In this document: positions 9,868-54,437 of the stretch, in pieces
Layout: each line of letters starts with the position of its first letter
How positions within the stretch are numbered: the stretch's first letter is position 1
From: Octadecabacter algicola
GTDB taxonomy: Bacteria > Pseudomonadota > Alphaproteobacteria > Rhodobacterales > Rhodobacteraceae
Assembly (NCBI RefSeq): GCF_021532625.1
Contig: NZ_JAKGAR010000002.1
Location: 744,001 to 808,000, forward strand
Reading direction: 5' to 3'
Length of the DNA stretch: 64,000 bases
The notes under the pieces: generated by a model
Seen by the model: only the letters and a program-made list of their open reading frames with translations
What the model was told of the DNA's origin: nothing
Database searches by the model: none
Program-made: the position numbers and the translations under genes

Positions 9868-10281
9868 TTAAGAAAATGACCGAGCGGCCAAAATCATGAA
9901 TATCACGCCAAACCCGATGCACAGCGGCGCGAAGTAGGTTTCATCCAAGCGGCGAAAGGGTTGTTCTGGTGAATTGCGTTTCCAGAACGGCGCATAAGCC
10001 ACAGCAGCGCGGATTTGGAACACAAACGCGATCCCGAGAAGTCCGAGAGATTTCAGCGCCCCATCAGGAAACCACGGCCAAGCCGCCGCAAATAGAAGGG
10101 CGACAACCACCATTGAGCAGGCGGCAGCATTCGGCATTTTCTCAATGCCTTTGGTGCCAACGACGGCGCGGGCCAATTCTGTCTCGTCTTTGATTGGCCA
10201 CCAATACCCAAGCGCCCAAAGAAGATGGACAGCCGCAATAACGATCAGCCCTGCCGAGGCAAGCAATGCCAGTGCGGTCAT
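9868..10281 (-). CDS. DUF3995 family membrane protein
   Basis: A 137-residue protein with about four hydrophobic segments (residues about 3-25, 52-72, 78-95 and 115-135), expected in the inner membrane. It resembles the DUF3995 family, with the motif LLWALGYWWP near the N-terminus and FAPLCIGFG near the C-terminus. Function is unknown. The start overlaps the stop of the upstream 195-residue secreted protein gene by 4 bases, so the two are cotranscribed. Confidence 0.75.
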   Translation of the reverse strand: MTALALLASAGLIVIAAVHLLWALGYWWPIKDETELARAVVGTKGIEKMPNAAACSMVVVALLFAAAWPWFPDGALKSLGLLGIAFVFQIRAAVAYAPFWKRNSPEQPFRRLDETYFAPLCIGFGVIFMILAARSFS

Positions 10282-10865
10282 TGCAGCGCTTCGATCTTGA
10301 TTGCTTGGTAGCGATCAACGGGATCGCCCTGAATTTGATAGCTATGCAGCAAGCCAAGCCCGACGTCAGGCAGATAATAAAGCCCTTCGTAAACAACATA
10401 ATCTGTGTTGGTGTATGTCAGCTTTCCGGGGATCATATCGTAGGTGCAGTCCCCGATGGTGAGGGTGGTCATGGCGCCCCAAGCCTGAGTTTGCGTTTCG
10501 GGGTATACGCTCGTTGGGCTGGTCACGGTCGTCTGATACGACCGGGAGCTTGAGGCTTCGGGGATCGGCATACCGGCGGGGGCAAAGGCATAAGTCATCG
10601 TGCGAACCGTATCAGGGATGTCATTGCCGTTTTCCGTGTCACTCAGGCCGATCAAATGGGTGCCCTGCGCGAGTAGGTTGCGGTAGGTATATCCGTCGGT
10701 CGCGACACCATCGTTTTGCACGATCCCGTCGTCGATGAGCCTGAACGTGTTAGTCGTGCCGTCGGATTCCGTGACGCGAATGCCCGTTTCAAGGTCTGCT
10801 GCAACGGGGCAATCTGCGAGTGCTGGGGCTGCGGCCAGAAGAGTGACGATCAGGGAATATTTCAT
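10278..10865 (-). CDS. Secreted hypothetical protein
   Basis: A 195-residue protein with a clear signal peptide (MKYSLIVTLLAAAPALA) and a cleavage site before Asp-Cys. The mature part contains two or three cysteines (DCPVA near the N-terminus, IGDCTYD about residue 138), which could form a disulfide in the periplasm. It has no domain I can name. It overlaps the DUF3995 gene by 4 bases. The upstream gap to sitD holds no further gene. Confidence 0.6.
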   Translation of the reverse strand: MKYSLIVTLLAAAPALADCPVAADLETGIRVTESDGTTNTFRLIDDGIVQNDGVATDGYTYRNLLAQGTHLIGLSDTENGNDIPDTVRTMTYAFAPAGMPIPEASSSRSYQTTVTSPTSVYPETQTQAWGAMTTLTIGDCTYDMIPGKLTYTNTDYVVYEGLYYLPDVGLGLLHSYQIQGDPVDRYQAIKIEALQ

Positions 10866-10970: not shown

Positions 10971-11804
10971 TTAGACTGCGCTTGTTTCCTGTGATCTATT
11001 GCGGATCAATCGGCTGACGAAAGCCGCCATAAACAGCGCGGTCATCACCAAGATTACAGTCGGGCCTGGGTCCGAGCCTATCCAGAAGCTAAGGTAGACA
11101 CCCGCCAACAGCGAAGACGTCGAAACCAGCACAGACACCCACAACATGTGCTTGAATTGCCGTGTCAGGAGGAATGCTACTGCTCCCGGGGCGATCAGCA
11201 AACCAATAGCAAGGATCAGACCGACAGCCTTTAGTGTTGCGACGATTGTCAGCGAAAGGATGACCAACAATCCGTAGTGCAACAAGTTCACAGGCAACCC
11301 GATAGCGCGGGCTTGGGCGGGGTCAAAGGCGTGTAGCAACAGGTCTTTCCAGCCAATTAACAAGGCCGCCGACACCAGTATACCAATGATACCCGACGTC
11401 CAAAGATCGCTGGCGGTGACGCCCAACATATTGCCAAACAAGATATGGTCGAGATGCACATTGGTTTCGATCTTGGTGTACAGAACTAAACCAAACCCAA
11501 ACATGCCTGAAAAGACCACGCCCATCACGGTGTCCTGTCGCACGCGACTGTTCGCGTCTAGGTATCCAGTCAGCAGAGAACATACCATGCCTGCAATGAA
11601 GGCCCCGACGATCAACGGCAGCCCGACGATATAGGCAAGAACGACGCCCGGAAGAACGGCGTGGGACACCGCGTCTCCCATCAAAGACCAACCTTTAAGC
11701 ACGAGGAAACATGACAGCAACGCCGTTGGCGGCCCAATCAGCAGCGCGATGTAGAACGCGCCGTGCATGAAGGGGAATTGGAACGGCAGGAGGAGATCAG
11801 TCAT
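10971..11804 (-). CDS. sitD: Manganese ABC transporter permease (SitD-type)
   Basis: A 277-residue integral membrane protein of the ABC-3 metal permease family. It has about eight hydrophobic segments, the N-terminal LKGWSLMGDAVSHAVLPGV and the C-terminal IGLLIAPGAVAFLLT. It is the last gene of sitABCD and pairs with SitC, to which it is clearly related. The start overlaps the sitC stop by 4 bases. Metal choice is inferred from the binding protein and the Mur box upstream of the operon. Confidence 0.88.
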   Translation of the reverse strand: MTDLLLPFQFPFMHGAFYIALLIGPPTALLSCFLVLKGWSLMGDAVSHAVLPGVVLAYIVGLPLIVGAFIAGMVCSLLTGYLDANSRVRQDTVMGVVFSGMFGFGLVLYTKIETNVHLDHILFGNMLGVTASDLWTSGIIGILVSAALLIGWKDLLLHAFDPAQARAIGLPVNLLHYGLLVILSLTIVATLKAVGLILAIGLLIAPGAVAFLLTRQFKHMLWVSVLVSTSSLLAGVYLSFWIGSDPGPTVILVMTALFMAAFVSRLIRNRSQETSAV

Positions 11805-12652
11805 GTGTGTAACGCCTCGGCTGCGCGTCTGCGGTGTGCGATCAAACCGTGTTTAGGCGCAAAGAAGAACGCTGCTAGGAAGATTGCGGTTTGCAGACAG
11901 ATGATCACGCCGCCCGTGGCACCATTTAAAAAATAGGACAGGTATGCGCCGAAAAAGCTGGAGAGGGAGCCGATTAAGACAGCAATAACCAAAAGGCGCG
12001 GGAAACGGTCGCTGAGAAGATATGCAGTCGCGCCCGGTGTAATGACCATGGCGATCACAAGAAACGCACCCACTGTCTGCAGGGCGGCAACGCAGGCCGC
12101 AGACAGCAGTACAAAGAATAAGAACCGAAGACGTTCAGGGCGCAACCCGATGGATCGCGCGTGGTTTTCGTCAAAGAAGGACACCATTAGGTCTTTCCAC
12201 TTGGCGATCAGGACCAACAGACAGACCACACCAATTACTGCCAATTGAATCGTATCGCTCGGCGTGATTGCAAGGATATTGCCAAGGATGATCGTTTGCA
12301 CATCTACCGCCACAGGGGACACGGACACCATGAACAACCCTAACCCGAAGAAACTGGTGAAGATCAGGCCGATAACGGCGTCTTCTTTTAATCCAGTGCG
12401 CTGGTTTAGAAACATCATCGCCGCCGCCGCCAGACCGCCAGAAAGGAATGCGCCCAAGGCAAAGGGCAGACCCAGCATATAGGCCCCGGCAACACCCGGC
12501 ACGATGGAGTGCGACAAGGCATCACCGATTAAAGACCAGCCTTTAAGCATCAGATAACATGACAGAAACGCGCAAACTGCCCCGACCAAAGCCGAAACGA
12601 ACATCGCGTTTAGCATGAAGGTATATGTGAACGGTTCCAGCAGCGCCGTCAT
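11801..12652 (-). CDS. sitC: Manganese ABC transporter permease (SitC-type)
   Basis: A 283-residue ABC-3 family permease with the signature LKGWSLIGDALSHSIVPGV close to the N-terminus and VIAMVITPGATAYLLS later. About eight membrane helices are visible. It forms the membrane channel with SitD. It overlaps sitB and sitD by 4 bases on each side, which supports one polycistronic message. Confidence 0.88.
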   Translation of the reverse strand: MTALLEPFTYTFMLNAMFVSALVGAVCAFLSCYLMLKGWSLIGDALSHSIVPGVAGAYMLGLPFALGAFLSGGLAAAAMMFLNQRTGLKEDAVIGLIFTSFFGLGLFMVSVSPVAVDVQTIILGNILAITPSDTIQLAVIGVVCLLVLIAKWKDLMVSFFDENHARSIGLRPERLRFLFFVLLSAACVAALQTVGAFLVIAMVITPGATAYLLSDRFPRLLVIAVLIGSLSSFFGAYLSYFLNGATGGVIICLQTAIFLAAFFFAPKHGLIAHRRRAAEALHT

Positions 12653-13539
12653 TCTTTGTCAGCCTGTGTGCGGGTTTGGTCGTCGTAGATAACAAAGGGA
12701 CGTTCATCGTCGGTCAGGATCGTGACTTTGCGTTCGTCGTCATCGTCATGCAGATCGTCGCCGCCCAGCACGAAGTGGCGCAGCACGCCGCCAAAGGCTG
12801 CTTCGAGGTTGTCTTTGGTGAAGACCTCTTCGGTCGGTCCGAAGTTTAGAACCGTGGCTTTGACCAAGACAGTTTGGTCACAAAACTCCGGCACAGAGCC
12901 GAGGTTGTGGGTGCTGACCAGCATCACACGGCCTTCGTCACGCAATTCACGTAATAATGTAATGATCGCCTCTTCGGTCTGAACATCGACGCCGGTAAAG
13001 GGTTCATCTAGCAAAATAACCTGCCCGTTCTGGGCCAAAGCGCGAGCGAGGAAAACACGTTTACGTTGCCCGCCCGAGAGTTCGCCAATCTGGCGGTCAC
13101 GGAATTCTGTCATGCCAACGCGGGCAAGGGCGTCAGTGACGGCTTCGTGGTCGGCGGCTTTGGGGCGGCGGAGTGGCCCCATGTGGCCATAGCGGCCCAT
13201 CATCACCACGTCTTCGACCAACACCGGGAAGGACCAATCGACTTCTTCTGCTTGTGGAACGTAAGCCACGATGCCCGCTTTGATGGCTTGGCGCACTGTC
13301 TGGCCAAGCACACCGATTTCACCAGCGGCGGCAGGCAGAAACCCCATGATCGCCTTGAACAAAGTCGATTTCCCTGCGCCGTTCACACCAACAAGGGCCG
13401 CGATAGTGCCACGGGGGATTGCAAAACTTGCGTCGCGCAGCGCGGTGACACCGTTTCGGTAGGTCACCGTTAGGCCATCCGCATAAAGACCTGCTTGGTT
13501 CTTGCTGGTCTGGTGCGGCGCGGGAGGGGGCAAATTCAT
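12649..13539 (-). CDS. sitB: Manganese ABC transporter ATP-binding protein (SitB-type)
   Basis: A 296-residue ATPase with Walker A GVNGAGKS (residues 51-58), the ABC signature LSGGQ (154-158) and Walker B VILLDEP (174-180). It energises import through SitC/SitD. The tail carries an acidic, Asp-rich stretch (DDLHDDDDE, about residues 258-266), which is unusual and could bind metal. It overlaps both neighbours by 4 bases. Confidence 0.9.
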   Translation of the reverse strand: MNLPPPAPHQTSKNQAGLYADGLTVTYRNGVTALRDASFAIPRGTIAALVGVNGAGKSTLFKAIMGFLPAAAGEIGVLGQTVRQAIKAGIVAYVPQAEEVDWSFPVLVEDVVMMGRYGHMGPLRRPKAADHEAVTDALARVGMTEFRDRQIGELSGGQRKRVFLARALAQNGQVILLDEPFTGVDVQTEEAIITLLRELRDEGRVMLVSTHNLGSVPEFCDQTVLVKATVLNFGPTEEVFTKDNLEAAFGGVLRHFVLGGDDLHDDDDERKVTILTDDERPFVIYDDQTRTQADKE

Positions 13540-14468
13540 TGGGTCAATCCATCTACGATGGTTTGTGTCGTGACGCGCAGCAGGTCGAGGTAGGTCGGCA
13601 CAGGGCCATCCGCAAGCGATAGTGAGTCAACATACAGCACGCCACCATAAGCCGCGCCAGTTTCGCGCGCCACTTGTGCGGCCGGGTCAGTGTTTACGGT
13701 ACTTTCGCAGAATACGGCAGGGATGTCGTTGGCGATTACGGTGTCGATGACACTGCGCACCTGTTGTGGCGTGCCGGTCTGATCGGCGTTCATGGGCCAT
13801 AGGTAGGCTTCTTTCAGGCCGAAATCATCGGCGATGTAGCTGAACGCACCTTCGCAAGTGACCAACCAACGCTTGTCTTCGGGGATCGCCATGATCTGGT
13901 CGCGCAGGGGTGCAATCGCCGCGGTAATTTCGTCTTTATAGGTTGCTGCGTTTGCGGCGTATGTCTCTGCATTGTCTGGATCATGCTCGCTCATCGCGGC
14001 GGCAATATTGTCGATGTAGATAAGCGCGTTGTTCAAGCCCATCCAAGCGTGTGGGTTTGGTAAACCCTCATAGGAACCTTCCGAAATCGACATGGGTGTA
14101 ATGCCTTCAGAGATCGTGGCCGAAGGTGTGTCACCAACATTGTCCATGAACTGCTCGAACCAAAGTTCGAGGTTCATCCCATTCCACAAAATCAAATCAG
14201 CACCTGAGGCCCGCACCAAGTCCTGCGGTGTTGGTTGGTAGCCGTGAATCTCAGCGCCCGCCCGTGTGATGGATTCAACGGTAGCAGCGTCACCTGCTAC
14301 ATTGCGGGCCATGTCAGCGATCACGGTAAAGGTCGTGACGACCTTAAACTCAGCCGCTTGGTTCTCTGAACTGACGGATGTTTCCGGAGTTGAAAAGAAC
14401 ATCTGCGAGACCACAAGAAATGCGATGATCAAAAGGGCGGCAACACCAAGCAGGATGCGGGTCGGCAT
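13536..14468 (-). CDS. sitA: Manganese ABC transporter substrate-binding protein (SitA-type)
   Basis: A 310-residue cluster-9 metal-binding protein with an N-terminal hydrophobic segment (residues about 5-25) that acts as signal or anchor. The probable metal ligands are His75, His140, Glu206 and Asp281. A Glu at the third position, as in pneumococcal PsaA, fits manganese rather than the His found in zinc proteins; this is family knowledge applied to the sequence. A Mur box and a hairpin covering the ribosome binding site lie upstream. It is the first gene of sitABCD. Confidence 0.9.
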   Translation of the reverse strand: MPTRILLGVAALLIIAFLVVSQMFFSTPETSVSSENQAAEFKVVTTFTVIADMARNVAGDAATVESITRAGAEIHGYQPTPQDLVRASGADLILWNGMNLELWFEQFMDNVGDTPSATISEGITPMSISEGSYEGLPNPHAWMGLNNALIYIDNIAAAMSEHDPDNAETYAANAATYKDEITAAIAPLRDQIMAIPEDKRWLVTCEGAFSYIADDFGLKEAYLWPMNADQTGTPQQVRSVIDTVIANDIPAVFCESTVNTDPAAQVARETGAAYGGVLYVDSLSLADGPVPTYLDLLRVTTQTIVDGLTQ

Positions 14469-14474
14469 GAGGGC

Positions 14475-14500
14475 AACTCCAAGAATTGTTTCTTGGAGTT
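14475..14500 (-). promoter_or_regulatory. Leader hairpin enclosing the sitA Shine-Dalgarno sequence
   Basis: A perfect 10-pair inverted repeat (mRNA sense AACUCCAAGA, loop AACAAU, UCUUGGAGUU) ends 6 bases before the sitA ATG. The only good ribosome binding site, UUGGAG, is in the 3' arm, 8 bases from the start, so in the folded state translation should be blocked. This suggests post-transcriptional control by temperature, a small RNA or protein, or metal. Confidence 0.6.
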
Positions 14501-14530
14501 ATGGACCCGTTTGAGGGGATGTCAATGCAG

Positions 14531-14547
14531 TTGCGAATTATTCGCAA
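14531..14547. promoter_or_regulatory. Mur box (manganese-responsive operator) upstream of sitA
   Basis: A perfect palindrome TTGCGAA-TTA-TTCGCAA, 63 bases upstream of the sitA start. It fits the pattern bound by Mur, the Fur-family manganese regulator of alphaproteobacteria, which represses sit genes when manganese is sufficient. Confidence 0.75.
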
Positions 14548-14561
14548 TAAAAGCTTAGCAC

Positions 14562-15797
14562 CTATAGTTGACCCGCATTGCGATACCAGCTGCGAATTGC
14601 AGCGCGATCTTCATCGGACATATAGGTGATGTTGGCAGGGGGCATGGCATGGCTAATGCCTGCTTGGACATAGATGGCACGGGCGTTTCGGGCGATATCG
14701 GCGGAGGTGTCCAACAGGACACCGCGTGGCGCCCAGAGCATGCTGTCAGAATAACTGGGTTCGCGCGAGTGACACATAGAACAGCGTCCCATGACGATAT
14801 CATGTGCATCGTCAAACCCGTCTGCAGCCGCGAACGTCTCTTCATACGGCGTTAGCGCGCGGGCCTCCGCGTCGTCATAGCTGTCCCACATGTTGGCTGT
14901 GGACAGCCACGCAATGATGATCATCAACAGGGCCGTTGCGGCCCATGTCCAGTGCGGCCCGGTCCCGGTCTTGTGCATGGTGTTGAAGTAATGGCGGATT
15001 GTGACGCCCGTCAGGAAGATCAAAGAGGCAATGATCCATGAATGGTCCGTCGCGAAGGACAGTGGATAGTGGTTGGACAACATCAAGAAGATGACGGGTA
15101 GTGTGAGGTAGTTGTTATGGGTGCTGCGCAGCTTGGCGATCTTGCCGTATTTTGCATCCGGCGTGCGGCCTTCTTGCAGGTCTTTCACCACGATGCGTTG
15201 GTTGGGCATGATGATAAAGAACACATTTGCGGTCATGATGGTCGCGGTGAACGCGCCCAAATGCAGCATCGCGGCGCGACCCGTGAAGACTTGGTTATAG
15301 CCGTAGGACATGATCACAAGAATGACAAACAGCAGAACCATCAGCAGGGTAGGGCTTTCGCCCAACGCGGATTTACACATGAAATCATAAAGCAACCAGC
15401 CAATCGTAAGGGAAAGTGCCGAGATCACAATGCCTTGCCAAAGCGCGATGTCGGCCTTGGCGGTGTCAATCAGATAAAGCTCTCCGCCGACCCAATAGAT
15501 GATCATTAGCAGGGCTGCGCCTGACAGCCACGTCGAGTAGCTTTGCCATTTGTGCCATGTCAGATGTTCAGGCAATCGGGCAGGGGCGACCATGTATTTG
15601 GTCGTGTGGTAAAACCCGCCGCCGTGGACTTCCCATTCTTCGCCGGACGCCCCATCTGGCATGTCGTCGGCAGGTTTTAGCATCAGGTCGAGCGCGATAA
15701 AGTAGAACGACGCCCCGATCCACGCCATTGCTGTAATCACGTGCAGCCAGCGGACCGAGAATGCGAGCCATTCCCATAAAATCACTGCGTCAAACAT
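14562..15797 (-). CDS. puuD: Membrane-bound urate hydroxylase with cytochrome c domain
   Basis: A 411-residue protein. The N-terminal about 300 residues contain eight or so membrane helices with conserved histidines, as in PuuD-type urate oxidases. The C-terminal about 100 residues carry a heme c motif CSMCH at 339-343, which probably passes electrons to the respiratory chain instead of making H2O2. It converts urate to 5-hydroxyisourate, the substrate of the nearby uraH. It is divergent from the LysR gene, which likely regulates it. Confidence 0.92.
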   Translation of the reverse strand: MFDAVILWEWLAFSVRWLHVITAMAWIGASFYFIALDLMLKPADDMPDGASGEEWEVHGGGFYHTTKYMVAPARLPEHLTWHKWQSYSTWLSGAALLMIIYWVGGELYLIDTAKADIALWQGIVISALSLTIGWLLYDFMCKSALGESPTLLMVLLFVILVIMSYGYNQVFTGRAAMLHLGAFTATIMTANVFFIIMPNQRIVVKDLQEGRTPDAKYGKIAKLRSTHNNYLTLPVIFLMLSNHYPLSFATDHSWIIASLIFLTGVTIRHYFNTMHKTGTGPHWTWAATALLMIIIAWLSTANMWDSYDDAEARALTPYEETFAAADGFDDAHDIVMGRCSMCHSREPSYSDSMLWAPRGVLLDTSADIARNARAIYVQAGISHAMPPANITYMSDEDRAAIRSWYRNAGQL

Positions 15798-40472: not shown

Positions 40473-40895
40473 TTGGCTATCATTGTTCGTATCCTCTCCG
40501 TTCTAGGTCTAACTGTTTTAGTGTCGTGCACCACGGTGCCGCAGACAGAACCATGCCAAAGCCCAGAGGCCTGCCTTATGTCTGGATTGATGGTGCAGGG
40601 CATGGCACCATCAATTGGAGAGGATTTTGGCGGTGGGGTTACCTTAAGCAATGTTCAGGCTGCGGGCGCGCTGGTGGTTTTTGATTTGAAATTGCCAATC
40701 GGCGGAGCGGGTTTGGAAACTGTCCAAAAACGCATCCTACATGACGTCGCATCCCAAGGTTTCGTTAACGGGTTTTGCGGCCAAGCCTCAGGGGAAGCAG
40801 ATGTTTTCCAGTTCGGTAACGCCTATCAAATACGCACCGTCGGCAGTGACGGCATCGTCATTGGTGCATCGACCCTACGAAGTTGCGGAGGCTGA
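40473..40895 (+). CDS. Lipoprotein inserted in the sarcosine oxidase operon
   Basis: A 140-residue protein with a signal peptide and lipobox (LTVLVSC, Cys19). The mature part contains a cysteine pair (PCQSPEACLM) and two more cysteines near the C-terminus (FCGQ, SCGG), so disulfides are likely. The TTG start at 40473 has GGAG 8 bases upstream. It ends one base before soxD starts, so it is part of the sox operon. The canonical operon has no such gene. I do not recognise its family. Confidence 0.7.
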   Translation: MAIIVRILSVLGLTVLVSCTTVPQTEPCQSPEACLMSGLMVQGMAPSIGEDFGGGVTLSNVQAAGALVVFDLKLPIGGAGLETVQKRILHDVASQGFVNGFCGQASGEADVFQFGNAYQIRTVGSDGIVIGASTLRSCGG

Positions 40896-53201: not shown

Positions 53202-54437
53202 TTAGAGGGTTTCGGCTCCGACACGACGCGCGCGCATGATCCCCCAAAGGGCACATACGACTGATGACATTGTGGTTAGGAGCATCAACACGATAAGAGG
53301 GCGCGCGCCTGTTTCTGGGCCAAGGACAAATCCAGCGATCACAGATAAAGCAGCGCCACCGCCGATCATGAATGCACCGCCAAGACCTGCTGCGGATCCC
53401 GCAAGTGCAGGGCGAACCGATAGCATCCCTGCATTTGCATTTGGCAAAAGGATGCCGTTGCCAAGCCCGATGAAAATCATAAACCCAAAGAAAACAAGAG
53501 GGTGAACAAGGCCAACAAGGTCACACATAAGTAAGAGAGCCATACCGACGGCGGTGATTGCGGCCCCAAATAGAACCATTCGGTTTACGCCAACACGTAT
53601 CGAAAACCGCCCCGACAACCCGTTGCCGACCAAATAGCCAATGGCGGGAGATCCGAAATAGATGCCTAGCTGAGACGCGTCGAGTTTGAATACTTCCGTA
53701 CCAACGAATGGCGCGCCGCCAAGGTATGCAAAGAAGGCACCGGATGAAAACGCGGCGGCCAAGCAATAGGCCCAAAACCGTTGGGAGGTCAGAAGGTCTG
53801 GGTATTCGCGGACTTGCGCTGCAAATCCGCCTTCGCGTTTGGTGAATGTTTCGCCCTGATCGAAGAAGCAAAGGATGAAGAGTAAGAAACCACTGGCTGC
53901 AAGTAGAAGGAACGACGCCTGCCAGCCAAAGACTTCATCCAAAAGGCCGCCCGCTGCGGGGCCTAACATCGGCACGATCGACATGCCCATTGTCACGTAT
54001 CCGATCATCGACGCGGCCTGATCTTGGCGTACCATGTCCCGCACGACCGCACGGCTGATTGCAAATGCCGTCGCGATTGCTGTTTGGAGCAAGCGACAAA
54101 TCAGAAATACCGTGAAGTTTGGCGCAAGCACGGCGCCGAGGCTGGCGAGCGTAAAGATCGCGACCGTTCCAAGCACAACCGGTCGGCGGCCAAAGCGGTC
54201 CGAAATTGGCCCAATCAGGATTTGGACGATGGCGGTTGTTGCCAGGTAAGCCGAAACCGACAGCTGGATTAGGCCATATTCAACGCCAAAATGCTCGGCC
54301 ATTGAGGGGAGCGAGGGCAGGAACACGTTCAACGACAATGCCCCGACGCCAGCCATGAGGATCAAGGTCGCGATATGGGGCGGTGTTGTGCGGTCCAGAA
54401 AACGGACAATCGGTGCTGTGCTTGCTGCATTTGACAT
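53202..54437 (-). CDS. Bcr/CflA family drug-resistance MFS transporter
   Basis: A 411-residue membrane protein with about 12 helices and the motif GPISDRFGRRPVVLG in the loop between helices 2 and 3, as in Bcr/CflA-type efflux proteins. The start region MSNAASTAPIVRFLDR fits. It is divergent from pccB, and its promoter region contains TTTGCA repeats, so it may be under PccR control. The exported compound is unknown. Confidence 0.87.
   Translation of the reverse strand: MSNAASTAPIVRFLDRTTPPHIATLILMAGVGALSLNVFLPSLPSMAEHFGVEYGLIQLSVSAYLATTAIVQILIGPISDRFGRRPVVLGTVAIFTLASLGAVLAPNFTVFLICRLLQTAIATAFAISRAVVRDMVRQDQAASMIGYVTMGMSIVPMLGPAAGGLLDEVFGWQASFLLLAASGFLLFILCFFDQGETFTKREGGFAAQVREYPDLLTSQRFWAYCLAAAFSSGAFFAYLGGAPFVGTEVFKLDASQLGIYFGSPAIGYLVGNGLSGRFSIRVGVNRMVLFGAAITAVGMALLLMCDLVGLVHPLVFFGFMIFIGLGNGILLPNANAGMLSVRPALAGSAAGLGGAFMIGGGAALSVIAGFVLGPETGARPLIVLMLLTTMSSVVCALWGIMRARRVGAETL

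Follow-up and report, generated by a model that had tools for sequence, protein, structure and literature searches.

A hairpin built into the sitA promoter of Octadecabacter algicola as a possible silencer of read-through RNA from an upstream urate oxidase gene

Bacterial genes are closely packed and their terminators are leaky. To our knowledge, the hairpins known to insulate a gene against read-through come mostly from phages, mobile elements and sporulation. In mobile elements of the IS10/IS50 type, the transposase is protected from read-through by an arm lying upstream of its start site, which buries the start region in RNA arriving from outside. For I-TevI of phage T4, the ribosome binding site is buried only in RNA from the upstream early and middle promoters and not in RNA from the proximal late promoter, and hairpins sequestering the ribosome binding site are reported also for the T4 genes e, soc and segB (PMC2988022). 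For sigG of Bacillus subtilis, earlier work cited in PMC5942855 proposes a hairpin that prevents RNA reading through from the upstream operon from being translated and that cannot form in RNA from sigG's own promoter.

How does the sitA locus of Octadecabacter algicola compare with these systems? Within the window, by which we mean the whole 64-kb stretch analysed, the minus strand reads AACTCCAAGAA-ACAA-TTCTTGGAGTT from 14500 to 14475, an inverted repeat whose RNA can form a hairpin of 11 perfect pairs. The 5' arm spans 14500..14490, the ACAA loop 14489..14486 and the 3' arm 14485..14475. The sitA Shine-Dalgarno (SD) sequence, TTGGAG (14477..14482, minus strand), lies within the 3' arm and is buried by the hairpin, with the ATG at 14468 following 8 nt on. 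The first-pass annotation had located the hairpin and the buried SD correctly, describing 10 pairs and a 6-nt loop instead of the 11 pairs and 4-nt loop found here. The hairpin before sitA is real: its folding z-score is -3.45, and none of 200 shuffles was equally stable. A comparison covered 320 genes from 800 kb of the same genome, each with an SD and 55 nt or more of upstream space, and no SD among them costs more to open than that of sitA (13.8 kcal/mol). Perfect stems of at least 11 pairs with loops of 3-8 number 0.1 per shuffled 64-kb window and two in the native one, and at the expected rate several per genome are possible by chance. The other perfect 11-bp hairpin of the window lies at 40586-40615 (ATTGATGGTGC...GCACCATCAAT, loop 8). 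A genome-wide search found the sitA inverted repeat in a single copy, with no repeat or operator of this kind elsewhere.

The gene behind the hairpin, sitA (13536..14468, minus strand; Pfam ZnuA, 2.1e-80), encodes the substrate-binding protein of a manganese/iron ABC transporter. Its end is overlapped by sitB (12649..13539, minus strand), the ATP-binding subunit, which scores 450 bits against a cut-off of 393 with NCBIfam NF011630 (manganese/iron ABC transporter ATP-binding protein). Two further open reading frames, sitC (11801..12652, minus strand), overlapping the end of sitB, and sitD (10971..11804, minus strand), overlapping the end of sitC, are named as permease subunits by operon position. 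The gene after the operon (10278-10865, 195 aa) has no Pfam or NCBIfam match. Elsewhere in the genus, genome G001 (loci L102 and L099) carries a sitA copy interrupted by two in-frame TGA codons together with a second, divergent, intact sitA at another place, a pair suggesting replacement by a foreign copy.

The hairpin overlaps the promoter of sitA. On the minus strand, a -35 element TTGACA (14520..14525) and a -10 element CATAAC (14498..14503) stand at a fixed spacing of 16 nt, and TTGACA-N16-CATAAC is a normal -35/-10 pair; the last three bases of the -10, AAC, are also the first three of the hairpin 5' arm, an overlap that the first-pass annotation had missed. The Mur box (TTGCGAATAATTCGCAA, 14531..14547, minus strand; family named according to PMC6956336) lies 5 bp upstream of the -35, and the hairpin is separate from it, as originally described. 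Mur box, TTGAC and CATAAC keep fixed spacing in 16 Octadecabacter-group genomes while the bases between them vary: TTGAC is present in all 16, and the successive bases of CATAAC in 16, 14, 16, 16, 12 and 15 of them. Transcription generally starts 6-8 nt after the -10. The near-invariant elements at fixed spacing thus place the predicted sitA start at 14490..14492 (minus strand), where the 5' arm meets the loop. Our literature search found no published start sites or transcriptomes for Octadecabacter sitA. In the other Rhodobacteraceae examined, the order is TTGACA, Mur box in the spacer, then -10; in R. sphaeroides, a Mur box is reported to separate the -35 of sitA from the -10 (PMC6956336), in agreement with the TTGACA/-10 assignment made in relatives. 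Many Rhodobacteraceae (among them loci L059, L075 and L101) carry a pair of Mur boxes at sitA, the first immediately before TTGACA and the second within the spacer; of these, the Octadecabacter group retains the upstream box alone.

A sitA mRNA begun at the predicted start would not include the 5' arm, and its SD would be left open: opening the SD takes 3.4 kcal/mol in the predicted short RNA versus 13.8 in read-through RNA. This bears directly on the mechanism first put forward, in which the ordinary sitA mRNA carries the hairpin in its leader and is held back from translation until heat, an sRNA or a metal opens the structure. The full hairpin would indeed bury the SD completely, but its 5' arm overlaps the -10 and is thus part of the promoter, which disfavours the idea. 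Across the genus, RNA starting at least 3 bases after the -10 has no excess pairing; in the model the full hairpin stays unmelted from 4 to 65 C, and it has no Rfam match. The first-pass annotation had itself named a start mapped inside the hairpin as evidence to the contrary, and a start there is what the -35/-10 pair, with TTGAC in 16/16 genomes, predicts. The leader mechanism is very improbable in our judgement and probably fails; a thermometer, sRNA target or metal-sensing RNA within sitA mRNA is not supported. The pairing of the arms, kept in related species beyond chance, does point to a post-transcriptional layer. An RNA thermometer of the ROSE or fourU type was rejected (the SD is unpaired with probability 0.0 from 4 to 45 C and 0.004 at 65 C; no Rfam match), as was a manganese riboswitch of the yybP-ykoY class, the window having no Rfam matches at gathering score except two tRNAs.

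A likelier target of the hairpin is read-through RNA from the urate oxidase gene upstream. Because the hairpin overlaps sitA's own promoter, its formation is probably confined to stray RNA entering from the neighbouring gene, and we propose, with a probability of about 0.52, that the inverted repeat silences the translation of such RNA. RNA polymerase passing the end of the puuD-like urate oxidase gene, for example during purine degradation, would make an RNA containing both arms. This RNA would fold at once and bury the sitA SD, neither SitA nor the overlapping sitB, sitC and sitD would be translated from it, and manganese import would thereby remain under Mur control. RNA from the Mur-controlled promoter would begin at the loop-proximal end of the 5' arm, lack that arm and, its SD being open, be freely translated.

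In anatomy, with start site and read-through RNA both predicted, the sitA hairpin appears to match the sigG and I-TevI type. The sigG and sitA hairpins are both proposed to block translation in read-through RNA only; the sigG stem exceeds 20 pairs and belongs to a sporulation gene, whereas that of sitA has 11 pairs and belongs to a metal transporter, and sitA differs further in its Mur-controlled promoter, whose -10 is itself part of an arm. The T4 I-TevI hairpin resembles the proposal for sitA in hiding the ribosome binding site in upstream-started RNA, but it sets phage timing, whereas the sitA hairpin would insulate a chromosomal operon from its neighbour. The IS10/IS50 arrangement protects a mobile element, and none is seen at sitA.

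Arm sequences are not conserved between species of the genus, but their complementarity is. When the -10 and SD were fixed and the intervening bases shuffled, native folding from -10 to ATG beat chance in 17 sequences (Fisher 1.5e-5), and with one sequence per clade the region from -35 to SD still folded more strongly than shuffles (Fisher 3.4e-5). Mean SD opening energy in the genus is 6.4 kcal/mol for the long RNA, 3.0 for the short RNA and 4.6 for shuffled sequences (Fisher p 7e-4). Relative to the SD, the pairing profile places the 5' arm at about -18..-10, the loop at -9..-6 and the 3' arm at -5..+4, with the predicted start at -12..-10. In a register-free swap test, which joins 5' halves to the 3' halves of other species and keeps the conserved elements, native arms averaged -6.5 kcal/mol versus -3.8 for chimeras, with a permutation p of ~5e-5 when the window sequence (L001) was omitted, the fair version given that this sequence prompted the search. 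The test was still significant without both L001 and L083. Its z was -4.3 to -4.9 for sitA versus -2.4 to +2.1 in five control genes of the genus; one of these controls (53202-54437), with n = 8 and doubtful start codons, reached p 0.01-0.03, so that a z near -2 is not trustworthy. Judged from these sequence comparisons, the pairing of the two arms across the genus is non-random.

In fixed columns, covariation is weak (45/500 shuffles as high) and RNAalifold gave no consensus structure for the sitA stem, both of which follow from a stem register that shifts between species. At locus L089, the partner of the SD is TTCCTGA, which belongs to the -35/-10 spacer, and the loop contains the -10. The large hairpins of L093 and L094 likewise take their 5' arm from this spacer, and their 3' arm runs up to the SD or stops immediately short of it. 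With the partner arm in the spacer, none of these three loci could form its hairpin unless transcription had started before the sitA promoter. SD burial does not exceed chance in L096, L092 and L094, despite puuD upstream. A further alternative is that the palindrome acts as DNA, binding a second regulator at the -10 as its operator. A perfect 26-bp dyad at the promoter core would suit such a role, but arm sequences that vary between species while complementarity is kept, and a motif that is single-copy in the genome, make it hardly tenable.

Could the palindrome have arisen without any function? The end of the -10 and the discriminator (AACTC) are naturally complementary to the SD (GGAGT), and a template-switch mutation might have perfected the palindrome from there. 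Conserved bases of the promoter and SD already supply four or five of the pairs, the perfect 11-bp stem occurs in this strain alone, with mismatches or bulges even in its sister L083, and the chance expectation of stems and the weak fixed-column covariation given above point the same way. However, the swap test retains the conserved elements and stays significant with both of these sequences removed, the control genes have no comparable effect, and sitA stands first of the 320 genes in SD burial. We regard this coincidental or mutational origin as unlikely but as the main rival of the silencer proposal, followed by one that assigns the hairpin to the urate oxidase gene.

That gene, puuD-like (14562..15797, minus strand; Pfam Urate_ox_N, 9.4e-131), is co-directional with sitA and belongs to a purine-degradation cluster. 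Its stop codon precedes the sitA ATG by 93 nt and the hairpin by 61 nt, and no terminator-like site was called in 14400-14650. A hairpin at this distance on the same strand could close the urate oxidase mRNA at its 3' end, by halting 3'-5' exonucleases or by terminating transcription inefficiently, and its position on the sitA promoter and SD would then be incidental. The large hairpins of L093 and L094, whose 3' arm ends just before the SD, agree with a 3'-end role, as does the lack of the hairpin in species without puuD upstream. However, no T-run follows the stem, the sequence there being GCCCTCATG, and an intrinsic terminator with GC-rich stem and T-run was rejected as a candidate. Moreover, the excess pairing is centred on the SD together with the bases that immediately precede it, and L088, where a different co-directional gene lies upstream, nevertheless buries its SD (p 0.04). 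A 3'-end function is accordingly rated as quite improbable.

The puuD neighbour upstream of sitA is retained in most members of the genus. At L012/L085 and L010/L091, puuD is absent beside sitA and the divergent allantoinase gene puuE adjoins instead, a gene-order change within the genus. In L085 and L091 there is no SD burial (p 0.81 and 0.51) and the stems are weak (-1.4 and -4.7 kcal/mol). In the related L084 and L090, where puuD is still the neighbour, a stem of -8.5 kcal/mol is preserved, and their long RNA shows no significant total SD burial (p 0.19 and 0.16). Drawn from two related species, the comparison is suggestive in favour of the silencer.

Outside the genus, 111 loci (128 in total) showed neither a general enrichment of SD burial nor an orientation effect (MWU p 0.32); an orientation effect hinted at by an earlier, smaller set did not hold among the 128. 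We therefore claim no family-wide rule, and the feature is, as far as the compared loci indicate, genus-restricted. Two Pacificibacter loci (L028, L033) with a co-directional gene upstream have an independent -10/SD stem, TACAGATG...CATCTGTAGGAG (p 0.01).

A broader view of these observations is possible, though we advance it tentatively and with more doubt than conviction. In this genus, the core promoter and SD of sitA may have co-evolved as the two halves of a silencer that acts conditionally and was re-formed in varying registers once the purine gene had become the upstream neighbour, and the promoter DNA would thereby also encode an RNA insulator against the neighbouring operon; the Pacificibacter -10/SD hairpins would then suggest repeated evolution.

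If the silencer proposal is true, a hairpin made from the -10 and the SD lets a tightly controlled gene ignore its neighbour's RNA at no sequence cost. The case of a metal-uptake operon would broaden the idea beyond its known settings, and the gene-order changes within the genus would provide a natural test of insulator gain and loss.
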